The position numbers and the translations under genes are program-made. Shown here piece after piece: positions 3,748-6,263 of a stretch of DNA of 7,711 nucleotides; position 1 is the stretch's first letter; each line of letters opens with the position of its first letter. Location: assembly GCA_955652855.1 (NCBI GenBank), contig CATPCN010000499.1:1-7711 (forward strand), given 5' to 3'. The DNA comes from an uncultured Chthoniobacterales bacterium (GTDB lineage: Bacteria; Verrucomicrobiota; Verrucomicrobiae; Chthoniobacterales; UBA10450). The notes under the pieces are model-generated. The model saw only the letters and a program-made list of their open reading frames with translations, had not been told where the DNA came from and did not search any database.

Positions 3748-5289
3748 TCATCGCTTCGACGTTGTCCTAGTACGCCGAAACGCGGACGACCGCCAGGAGG
3801 CACCGACGGAGTTCACGTCTCCAAGCGGATCGGGTCGTGAAAGATTTCTATGGTGCACGTCCTGTTCGCGATCCCCGTACAACATCGTGACGTTGATTCG
3901 ACGGTCTTCGTAGTCGGGTCGAAAGCGCACGGCATCTGTGCCGTGGAAAAGGTCCGAATTAAAGATGATTGCTCGGTTTTGCCGGTACGGGATTCTGATG
4001 CTGCGCGACTGCTGCCGTCTGAGGAATGGCTTAATGACGTCATGGCGCCCGTTGTAAGTGTCGAAGTCCCACCACTGAGGTGCATCTACGTCGTAGATGA
4101 GCAAGCCACCCGACGTCGGATCCAAATTGGCGTCATCTGGCGTAATCCAGAAATTCACGTTGACTGCCGCAAAATCGGCATGCGTCGACGCGTCTGCGGG
4201 AAGCATGGCGTCGTACTTGAATCCCCATAGCTGGCGAAGGGGAAAGCGATCGCCGATGACCCTCGGAAGAGTGTCGCGGAGCTCCTCAGCGATCTGCAGC
4301 AATAAGGGGCAGTTAAAGCCATCCTGAAAAAATGCGCCAAGTCGCCCATATGCGTAGCGATTCCCGGACCACACCGTCGACTCGAGGCAAAATGCGCGGA
4401 CGCCGTTCAGAGCTTCGGGCGTTAGAAAGTCGTCGATGATCACGATTCCCGGAGGCCGGTCGAGATATCGAGTTTCAATTTCGGCAGGATTCCAGGTCTC
4501 GGAAAGCGCCCGCCGAATGCGGGGCGTGTCGCGGACGTGGATCAGTCGGTTGTATGCGTAACCGATGGATTCGAACAGTTCTCCCTTAAGAGCCGTCCGT
4601 GAATCGAGCCCCTCCGGTTCCAACCGATTGAGCGCTTGCAGAAAAGACTCTATGACGCGATCCCCTTCGTCGCCCAATAGCCCGCGCGCGCGAAGGTATC
4701 GCAATTGTTCGACGTCGTGCCGCAGCTTCGGCACGGTCACGGGCAGAGACGGTGTTTCCGCAGGCGCATACCCCCTGGGCATCCCGGCGACACCCATAGA
4801 TGTCCGAATGTCCCCTCCCCACCGCAACTCTGCGATGATTCGCGCAAGCTCCCCCGCCATGGTGAGATCCCGACTCCCCATCGCCCGTGAGACGAGCCCT
4901 TGCATCCACTCAACGCCACCGACTTCGGACCGCACCGCGCGGAATAGCGCGTAGCTCTCTTTGCTTCTCCCCGCGCGCACGAGCAGCGCCGCTAGATTCC
5001 GACGCGCCAATGCGAGAGTCGGGTTCTTTTCAAGCGCCTTCGAGTAGAAGGCAACCGCCTGGTCTACCGCTCCTCTGATCTCGCAGACCCATCCGAGGTT
5101 GTTGTGGGCCATCGCATGATCGGGCGACACCGCGATCGCGCGTAGAAAGTAGGCCTCCGCTTCTGCGTATCGCCTTTGCCCGGCGAGGTCGTGCCCAGCA
5201 TCGACGAGCAATCTGGCCTCGTCACCATCCGAGCCCGCGAACCCACCGCTCGCTGGTTCTGTGCGATCCGCGAGCATCGAGGTCTCCAC
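3748..5289 (-). CDS. TPR protein with C-terminal 2-oxoglutarate/Fe(II) oxygenase domain
   Basis: A 513-residue, probably cytoplasmic dioxygenase. Three TPR-like helical repeats of 34 residues fill about 25-126 (for example AMAHNNLGWV...KALEKNPTL); such repeats normally bind a protein partner. A helical linker runs to about 270. The catalytic double-stranded beta-helix domain follows from about 278 (PPGIVIIDDFL): His370 and Asp372 (THADF) and His449 (LFHGTD) are the expected Fe(II) ligands, and Arg464 in RRINVTM is the likely 2-oxoglutarate anchor. The motif set is intact, so hydroxylation of a protein or peptide side chain is the likely reaction; the substrate is not shown. The family resembles SM-20/prolyl-4-hydroxylase-like enzymes. 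The GTG start is set by AGGGAG six bases upstream, which touches the stop of the Thr-Gly repeat gene, so the two are translationally coupled. The last 25 or so residues are basic and Ser/Arg-rich and may be a variable tail. Confidence 0.92.
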   Translation of the reverse strand: METSMLADRTEPASGGFAGSDGDEARLLVDAGHDLAGQRRYAEAEAYFLRAIAVSPDHAMAHNNLGWVCEIRGAVDQAVAFYSKALEKNPTLALARRNLAALLVRAGRSKESYALFRAVRSEVGGVEWMQGLVSRAMGSRDLTMAGELARIIAELRWGGDIRTSMGVAGMPRGYAPAETPSLPVTVPKLRHDVEQLRYLRARGLLGDEGDRVIESFLQALNRLEPEGLDSRTALKGELFESIGYAYNRLIHVRDTPRIRRALSETWNPAEIETRYLDRPPGIVIIDDFLTPEALNGVRAFCLESTVWSGNRYAYGRLGAFFQDGFNCPLLLQIAEELRDTLPRVIGDRFPLRQLWGFKYDAMLPADASTHADFAAVNVNFWITPDDANLDPTSGGLLIYDVDAPQWWDFDTYNGRHDVIKPFLRRQQSRSIRIPYRQNRAIIFNSDLFHGTDAVRFRPDYEDRRINVTMLYGDREQDVHHRNLSRPDPLGDVNSVGASWRSSAFRRTRTTSKR

Positions 5290-5303
5290 TCCCTTCTCCC
5301 TTA
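5287..5303 (-). promoter_or_regulatory. Stop/Shine-Dalgarno overlap coupling the repeat and oxygenase genes
   Basis: On the minus strand the junction reads TAAGGGAGAAGGGAGTG. TAA (5303-5301) ends the Thr-Gly repeat gene, AGGGAG (5301-5296) is a strong Shine-Dalgarno that uses the last A of the stop, and GTG (5289-5287) starts the oxygenase gene after a six-base spacer. A ribosome ending on the first gene is placed directly over the second start. This favours GTG 5289 over the internal ATG at 5277. Confidence 0.8.
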
Positions 5304-6263
5304 TCCCCGTTGGCTCTCATATTCGAGCGCCCCCAACTCCATGAGGCGGGCAGCGTACTTCGCGAGCGCGTCAAGCGTAACCATAACGTAGGACGGCGCG
5401 AAATCATTGAATCCGCCTTCAGTTACTCGATTATCGGTCGCATGATCCGTTCCTGTGAAAGGACTGCGCGTAAATCCTGTACCAGTGAGCGTTATCGCCG
5501 TTCCGGTGCCAGTTCCTGTCCCGGTACCCGTACTCGTGCCCGTGATGTAAGTCGACCACGTAATCGCCGTCAGCGTGCCGTCGGTGCCGGTGCCGGTCCC
5601 CGTCCCGGTGCCCGTCGCGTCTGTCCCCGTTCCAGTTCCGGTGCCCGTATTCGTGCCCGTTCCAGTGCCAGTGCCGGTTCCCGTATCGGTCCCGGTGCCC
5701 GTTCCGGTCCCGGTGCCTGTCGCAGTGTCGGTTCCGGTTCCAGTGCCAGTATCGGTTCCGGTGCCGGTTCCAGTGTCGCCGGTGCCGGTTCCAGTATTTG
5801 TTCCGTCCATGCCCGTACCACCTATGGGCCCCAGATTGCGCGCTGCGCCGACGGTCAACAGAAAATGTAAGAGATCTTCGTGAAATATGACCATTGGCTG
5901 GCGGTCGGCTGCACTCCGAATCAACGCCACTACGACGTGAGCACCCCCTCTCTGCGCCACGGCGCAAGAGAAGTCGTTAATGAATTGCCGTCCCGATGGG
6001 ACCTTCGCGTGATGTGCGAGAGCGTACTCGTGGAGCCAGACCAACAGCAGTCGGTTCGACATGACGGCGTAGACCAGCTGGTTGCAAACCGACGCCTGCT
6101 CCGGTGGCAGACGTTCTCCATGGATGTATTCAGCGAGCACTTGCGAGGGGTCCGTCACGAACTGCTCTCGCAGAAGAAAATCGTTCGCCATCGATCGAAA
6201 TAGCGCATCGACGCGACGCACAGTCGCGACGCGCTGCATGATTCGCGATTCTGTATTAGTCAT
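5301..6263 (-). CDS. Thr-Gly repeat protein with helical N-terminal domain
   Basis: I do not recognise a named family. The 320-residue product has no signal peptide. Residues 1-140 look like a folded helical domain, including ALFRSMANDFLLREQF, then TDPSQVLAEY, then helices through LVYAVMSNRLLLVWLHEYAL and LLHFLLTVG. The helix-DPxxVLAEY pattern is like that in several peptide leader domains (NHLP/Nif11-type), though this domain is longer. Residues 149-228 are almost pure Thr-Gly alternation, broken every 7 to 14 residues by Asp or Asn. A short break (LTAITWSTYI) and a second Thr-Gly tract (241-263) follow. The C-terminus (about 284-317) ends in an amphipathic helix. GGGGAG lies six bases upstream of the ATG. 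The gene is coupled to the oxygenase gene, which makes this protein a natural candidate substrate or partner. Alternatives: a structural filament, an adhesin-like tract, or an ice-binding-like Thr array. Confidence 0.85.
   Translation of the reverse strand: MTNTESRIMQRVATVRRVDALFRSMANDFLLREQFVTDPSQVLAEYIHGERLPPEQASVCNQLVYAVMSNRLLLVWLHEYALAHHAKVPSGRQFINDFSCAVAQRGGAHVVVALIRSAADRQPMVIFHEDLLHFLLTVGAARNLGPIGGTGMDGTNTGTGTGDTGTGTGTDTGTGTGTDTATGTGTGTGTGTDTGTGTGTGTGTNTGTGTGTGTDATGTGTGTGTGTDGTLTAITWSTYITGTSTGTGTGTGTGTAITLTGTGFTRSPFTGTDHATDNRVTEGGFNDFAPSYVMVTLDALAKYAARLMELGALEYESQRG
5475..5543 (-). repeat. Second, shorter Thr-Gly coding tract
   Basis: This encodes residues 241-263 of the repeat protein: TGTS followed by Thr-Gly pairs, then a degenerate end (AITLTGTG). 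It is separated from the main tract by a non-repetitive segment containing Trp and Tyr (LTAITWSTYI). The segment may be a turn or a boundary between two repeat blocks. Confidence 0.75.
5580..5819 (-). repeat. Main Thr-Gly coding tract with interspersed Asp/Asn
   Basis: This encodes residues 149-228 of the repeat protein. The unit is six bases (Thr-Gly), with Asp or Asn at residues 153, 156, 163, 171, 179, 193, 205, 215 and 228; most take a Gly position. The DNA is not a pure microsatellite: all four Thr codons (ACC, ACG, ACT, ACA) and three Gly codons (GGC, GGA, GGG) are mixed through it. The opposite strand in one frame reads as a long Pro-Val alternation, which is only the mirror of this tract. 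Confidence 0.9.

Follow-up and report, generated by a model that had tools for sequence, protein, structure and literature searches.

Collagen prolyl 3-hydroxylase P3H1 has a repeat protein as its substrate and targets proline in Gly-X-Y collagen, and the usual iron site of 2-oxoglutarate (2OG) oxygenases, from which AspH departs in lacking the acidic ligand, consists of an acid and two histidines. AspH is described as acting on protein side chains (PMC6817910), with an iron site that differs from the usual form (PMC13168262), and bacterial protein hydroxylation is described for ribosomal oxygenases (PMC4295552). Among pathways for ribosomally synthesized and post-translationally modified peptides (RiPPs), the long structured leaders of the NHLP type are described as being recognized through protein-protein contacts (PMC12455567), and another RiPP cluster is presented in which a JmjC protein and a tetratricopeptide repeat (TPR) protein each have their own gene (PMC12707348). 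Here, we describe a gene pair in a 7,711-nucleotide stretch of contig CATPCN010000499.1 (the whole of which is called the window) from an uncultured Chthoniobacterales bacterium, in which a Thr-Gly repeat protein is encoded directly upstream of a TPR-containing 2OG oxygenase. We propose, at a probability of about 0.72, that the pair belongs to an undescribed RiPP-like cassette for leader-guided protein hydroxylation, with the repeat protein as substrate. In the open-licence PMC literature, no paper was recognized from its title and the start of its abstract as describing this cassette, of which gene order, conservation, catalytic residues, co-occurrence and a shared C-terminal tag are the features demonstrated here.

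The gene pair and its precursor family

The original prediction, made from the letters of the window, named a repeat gene and an adjacent oxygenase gene, and both open reading frames (ORFs) are present on the reverse strand, to which all coordinates of the pair refer. The first encodes a precursor-like protein of 320 residues (6263-5301) with an N-terminal domain (N-domain), a Thr-Gly tail and a C-terminal helix, and the second a TPR 2OG/Fe(II) oxygenase of 513 residues with a GTG start (5289-3748); the database copy of the oxygenase (P0033) has 509 residues, matching an ATG start four codons downstream. The junction reads TAA-GGGAGAAGGGA-GTG, so that a Shine-Dalgarno-like stretch abuts the stop codon of the repeat gene, just as had been predicted. 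Several of the 16 precursor/oxygenase junctions compared overlap or nearly do so.

The leader-like N-domain (residues 1-148, 5820-6263; RRVDALFRxM..DFLLREQFVTDP) is all-helical in an AlphaFold2 model, with eight predicted helices and a mean predicted local distance difference test score (pLDDT) of 83.5, in keeping with the earlier expectation of a folded N-terminal domain. A fold search gave no convincing match among solved structures, which does not make the fold new. Searching proteins with these 148 residues, by a method that reaches only relatives sharing 5-residue words, yielded 32 proteins including the window's own, with an E value of 2.5e-21 for the weakest of the 31 others; no match to the repeat protein was obtained in plasmids and viral contigs. 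The 32 relatives largely retain RRVDALFRAM..DFLLREQFVTDP and a C-terminal VTLxALxQYAxxL, the conserved C-terminal segment of the window protein being YVMVTLDALAKYAARLMELGAL (5304-5390), a presumed helix. Between these two parts the sequences are fully divergent, with examples such as GTGTGTD, GTEMSTGTDFGTERS, GTEMSPGGGTEQSGTHMSPG, TDTGPTTQT and GDGGTGDGGT. The N-domain and the C-terminal helix are the constant parts of the precursor and flank exchangeable Thr-rich segments, and the family has the RiPP arrangement of a conserved leader and a variable core adjoining tailoring enzymes.

In the window, the tail (residues 142-291) contains 30% Gly, 38% Thr and 2% Pro. The near absence of Pro noted in the original prediction holds for this tail but does not extend to several relatives, whose tails reach 7-14% Pro. 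Because Gly, Ser and Thr alone occur in all 32 tails, Thr is the favoured candidate for the target residue. The Thr-Gly tract itself (residues 149-231, 5571-5819) is hypervariable among relatives and is followed by a TAITWSTY segment (residues 232-239, 5547-5570) and an FTRSPFT segment (residues 264-270, 5454-5474). Two core motifs, both written after inspection of the sequences, were counted in 56 precursors, comprising the 32 database proteins and 24 genome loci, among which a near-identity screen flagged only the window's own protein. TA[IV]TWxT[YFW]-like segments are present in 18 (class A, to which the window belongs, and in several members of which FTRSPFT recurs), at least two [GT]T[EDHQ]xS units in 20, neither in 18 and both in none. 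A single core motif for the whole family was rejected, as the two classes are mutually exclusive and 18 precursors fit neither. The Thr-Gly repeat was also rejected as the defining feature, since four Streptomyces precursors (L008, L013, L015 and L021) that adjoin the same oxygenase contain no repeat. These repeat-less precursors make a wider family of Thr-rich segments the likely target, which in the window is perhaps the TAITWSTY segment and not the repeat.

For the full oxygenase, only TPRs score above the Pfam cut-off (about residues 30-120), in agreement with the TPR front end read originally, for which protein binding is itself predicted. The catalytic part alone matches 2OG-FeII_Oxy_3 (PF13640) below cut-off (13.8 versus 27 bits), and the assignment to the Fe(II)/2OG superfamily is based on catalytic residues and fold, not on the Pfam score. 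The HxD iron ligands H370 (4180-4182) and D372 (4174-4176), the distal iron ligand H449 (3943-3945) and R464 (3898-3900), presumed from its role in the superfamily to bind 2OG, are invariant in 50 of 50 aligned sequences, and the HxD...H...R set is indeed intact. In a Foldseek search with the AlphaFold2 model (mean pLDDT 83.0, falling below 50 for residues 495-513), P3H1 took ranks 1, 2 and 4 and AspH rank 3. One partial match to the oxygenase (34%) was found in phages.

Neighbourhoods, companion enzymes and a shared tag

A genome scan of one genome per species, based on exact peptide patterns and not exhaustive, identified 24 loci encoding the N-domain. These are found in beta-proteobacteria (Duganella, Pseudoduganella, Massilia, other Burkholderiales and Silvimonas), in actinobacteria (Streptomyces, Nonomuraea, Granulicoccus, Geodermatophilaceae and Pseudonocardia) and in one myxobacterial and one cyanobacterial metagenome-assembled genome (MAG). 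The oxygenase lies directly downstream on the same strand in 22 of the 24, which answers the concern that homologues of the repeat protein might mostly occur without an oxygenase neighbour. The predicted pair stands as far as this adjacency goes; what does not stand is the pair as the complete unit, which often extends to a cassette that includes a methyltransferase, or the Thr-Gly repeat as a constant part of it. In one of the two remaining loci (L002), the precursor reaches the contig end and the only oxygenase match of the genome begins 845 bases into another contig, a pattern that fits a locus split between contigs. The other (L001) is from Pseudonocardia asaccharolytica, where the precursor is preceded, at a distance of 70 bases, by the end of a gene for a JmjC_2 protein. 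The JmjC_2 oxygenase gene occupies 8683-9918 of that locus, and downstream of the precursor is another gene (10910-12148), presumably an insertion sequence transposase. A second JmjC relative, with 31% identity to the first, is encoded near a Streptomyces precursor on the opposite strand (L015, 6380-7549, reverse strand).

The association was also approached from the oxygenase side in samples of 300, 296, 392 and 297 genomes. C-terminally tailed oxygenases occurred in 17 sampled genomes, 15 of which were already in the 24-locus set, and an N-domain gene adjoined the oxygenase in 16 of the 17; of the two new genomes, G949 is linked and G1210 is not. Oxygenase relatives that end at the catalytic domain gave 18 matches in 16 genomes, and ORF or six-frame searches of the 6.9-18 kb around each found no N-domain near any of the 18. 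Within the phyla of G006 (locus L009; n=140) and G012 (locus L023; n=146), a search for further occurrences recovered the centre genome itself only.

An FkbM methyltransferase (PF05050, two members Pfam-tested) is the next gene in 15 of the 24 loci, and among ORFs within at most 10 kb of the loci it is the only third gene family that several genera share. No FkbM gene was detected in the Streptomyces loci L008, L013, L015 and L021, in Nonomuraea L014, in Silvimonas L012, in Pseudonocardia L001 or in L010, nor in the 6 kb around the oxygenase of the L002 genome, whose precursor locus ends at the contig end. FkbM as a constant part of the cassette was rejected on these absences (9 of 24). Lanthionine synthetase, YcaO and radical SAM enzymes were not seen to recur across the loci.

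On a Cupriavidus oxalaticus plasmid the row of genes is longer: a truncated precursor and the oxygenase are followed by FkbM, a protein without assignment, an extra oxygenase of the 2OG-Fe(II) type and, last, an aldo/keto reductase. This precursor is without the N-domain, its 5' part apparently having been replaced by other DNA; the region concerned (L093, 5050-6964) lies upstream of an intact-looking modification cluster. The unassigned protein, which has no Pfam match, and the extra 2OG oxygenase, which is 2OG-FeII_Oxy_3 above cut-off in Cupriavidus and Massilia, recur in Massilia L022 and Geodermatophilaceae L005 at 48-64% identity. In all, GTEMSPG tails are accompanied by two further enzymes in three clusters, of which one is without the N-domain.

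An AWRSxAFxR-like C-terminal tail is found on the oxygenases linked to the N-domain and also on many of the FkbM enzymes, which have a different fold; the consensus common to both is WRSxA(F/W)xR. In the window oxygenase, this tag is WRSSAFRR (residues 499-506, 3772-3795) in a region predicted to be disordered. Written as W[RK][STP]x[SAGV][FLWIM] within the last 45 residues, an expression chosen after the tails had been seen, the tag is present in 113 of the best 120 out of 4371 oxygenase homologues, that of the window being counted, and in 98 of the best 120 out of 697 FkbM homologues, with the query counted. The same expression occurs once in the 52116 residues of the protein bodies of the oxygenase set, once in the 23098 residues of the FkbM set, and in none of 32 precursors. 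At the N-domain loci, the tag is carried by 20 of 22 oxygenases, with L010 and L023 departing, and by 9 of 16 FkbM enzymes when that of Cupriavidus is counted; two of the remaining FkbM enzymes have WRS in another setting and five have WRR, WRK or WGR. None of 18 tail-less oxygenases and none of 3 distant FkbM proteins has it, and among the extra enzymes it was not seen at the C-termini of the three from Cupriavidus, of the oxygenase from Geodermatophilaceae or of the JmjC protein. One distant, tag-less FkbM gene was observed beside PqqD, nucleotidyltransferase and HPr kinase genes on a Crinalium plasmid (L105, 1264-4666).

TPR grooves often bind C-terminal peptides, which makes the TPR part a natural guess for where the tag docks. 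More speculatively, and in our judgement at less than even odds, the cassette may represent leader-guided modification of a new class, in which the common tag A-W-R-S-x-A-[F/W]-x-R lets unrelated enzymes (the TPR-2OG oxygenase and FkbM) dock on one scaffold, for example the precursor or the oxygenase's own TPR groove, and so build a line that first hydroxylates and then methylates interchangeable Thr-rich cores in several phyla.

The components also appear to have travelled together. Distances correlate between N-domain and oxygenase (r 0.89, n=23), oxygenase and FkbM (r 0.96, n=17) and N-domain and FkbM (r 0.96, n=15), none of these values being reached in 2000 permutations; the correlations are uncorrected for relatedness, and Duganella contributes many related loci to them. 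In both N-domain and oxygenase, the cyanobacterial locus falls with those of Duganella. The N-domains of Massilia and Geodermatophilaceae are mutual nearest neighbours among the loci, and both share two extra enzymes with the Cupriavidus plasmid. From this grouping and this pairing it is likely that the cassette moved between phyla as a unit, with MAG contamination as the alternative.

Several other genes were observed around the cassette. In one Duganella-type group, a gene of family 6 lies directly upstream of the precursor (L011, 7677-9869; also L003, L004, L006, L007 and L010); the L011 product is a response regulator with PAS, GGDEF and EAL domains by Pfam, and a sensor-kinase-like gene (family 5) precedes the family 6 gene. 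A DnaX-like gene (family 13) is near the cassette in the cyanobacterial MAG (L023, 6079-7506) and in Duganella (L011, 15837-18410), which may be coincidence. In the window, a 583-residue protein (535-2286, reverse strand) gives weak LysM (18.7 versus 20.9 bits) and subtilase (15.4 versus 21.8 bits) Pfam matches and carries a GTSFSTP serine motif. Adjoining its gene is one for a 294-residue protein that reads like a lipoprotein (2296-3180), and upstream of the repeat gene is a 337-residue protein (6381-7394, reverse strand) without a Pfam or NCBIfam match. Homologues of these three proteins were not found in the 24 N-domain loci, and an Rfam scan of the window gave no match at gathering scores.

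Proposed mechanism and competing explanations

In the mechanism that we propose, the helical N-domain would serve as a long folded leader, recognized by the oxygenase, probably by way of its front half (TPR or helical). Side chains of the Thr-rich region that separates the N-domain from the C-terminal helix would then be hydroxylated by the Fe(II)/2OG domain. In the window, the conserved stretch TAITWSTY...FTRSPFT would be the best candidate target, and the Thr-Gly tract would be either a spacer or a second target. In other lineages, the FkbM methyltransferase would add a methyl group, perhaps onto the new hydroxyl.

Leader recognition, hydroxylation, target residue, step order and tag function are inferred parts of this proposal, and several observations weigh against it. 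The Foldseek TM-scores for P3H1 and AspH are low (0.14-0.30), and many further matches cover the TPRs only. The draft genome of P. asaccharolytica has no TPR oxygenase match, and G1210, from the family of Streptomyces G005, encodes a shortened tailed oxygenase with no N-domain within 17 kb. In the protein database, 4371 relatives of the oxygenase score, against only 32 proteins with the N-domain; many of these oxygenases may be of the unlinked kind, and the limited sensitivity of the N-domain search may account for part of the gap. Gene neighbourhoods are known for only a minority of the 120 listed oxygenase homologues. No FkbM gene or remnant was found in the window by tblastn. Finally, comparison of the ORFs near the loci brought up neither a protease nor a transporter family recurring across genera, and with FkbM alone recurring, the usual end steps of a RiPP pathway are missing or encoded elsewhere.

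The lack of a recurrent protease or exporter is also what would be expected of a modified structural or surface protein, in which the precursor stays whole, hydroxylation tunes the repeat as in collagen and nothing is cleaved. The repeats are long and variable in length, and P3H1, which hydroxylates collagen, and AspH, both acting on whole proteins, are among the folds ranked best. We nevertheless consider this explanation unlikely, as the repeats are absent from the four Streptomyces precursors, and the tails change wholly between lineages while the N-domain and C-terminal segment stay, in the manner of leaders and cores.

A second explanation, which we find about as doubtful, concerns the Thr-Gly tract, which could be a product of hexanucleotide slippage with little function, leaving the N-domain, TAITWSTY and the C-terminal helix to do the work. 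The tract is a period-6 array whose length varies among relatives and which some of them lack, and TAITWSTY-like segments are those that define class A. Against slippage, the third codon positions of the tract are well mixed for both Gly (GGC 15, GGA 11, GGG 5, GGT 1) and Thr (ACC 17, ACG 11, ACT 8, ACA 3), which argues for an array that is old or selected, and Thr and Gly are frequent too in the repeats of other lineages, which look quite different. The mixed third positions would fit selection on the protein, and an opposite-strand Val-Pro frame that shares the wobble positions fits them equally. A partner or adaptor role, in which the repeat protein would bind the TPR part and steer the oxygenase to another target instead of being its substrate, is improbable, since tail classes vary with the enzyme set (three GTEMSPG clusters with two further enzymes, a small number), which an adaptor would not need, even though adjacency and co-inheritance do not separate substrate from partner and conservation is strongest in the folded N-domain.

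If the leader-guided hydroxylation cassette is real, it would constitute an undescribed family of bacterial protein-hydroxylation clusters in several phyla, with its own leader domain and a tag as an enzyme-assembly handle, and would add to the few systems known to hydroxylate proteins in bacteria. As a small operon of Thr-rich cores, an oxygenase and a methyltransferase, it would be simple to test and reuse.

Comparison with known systems

Each of the systems introduced above shares part of this arrangement, P3H1 and AspH solely in how the enzyme is laid out. P3H1 is likewise a 2OG oxygenase with a TPR part, but the low Pro content of the window tail and the low TM-scores set the two apart. 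AspH has the same order of a TPR front and a 2OG oxygenase back; its targets, however, are EGF-like domains, and Pfam found no EGF-like domain in the precursor. The iron site differs as well, in that the window oxygenase has a complete HxD...H with an invariant D372. The JmjC_2 protein beside the precursor of a genome without the TPR oxygenase recalls the ribosomal oxygenases and other JmjC proteins, which form a different branch of the 2OG oxygenases from that of the window enzyme.

The remaining comparison is with RiPP pathways that use long structured leaders (NHLP and proteusin). NCBIfam TIGR04509, an NHLP-related RiPP peptide family, weakly matches 5 of 26 family members (best E 0.0092), at residues 35-63 in P0017 and residues 14-43 in L005, which correspond to the DFLLREQFVTDP region. 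These matches are below cut-off (13.1 and 11.7 bits versus 34 in P0017 and L005), and the window protein has none. The cassette resembles these pathways in its long helical leader-like domain, its hypervariable downstream part and its adjacent tailoring oxygenase and FkbM methyltransferase, and differs from them in an enzyme with a TPR front half.

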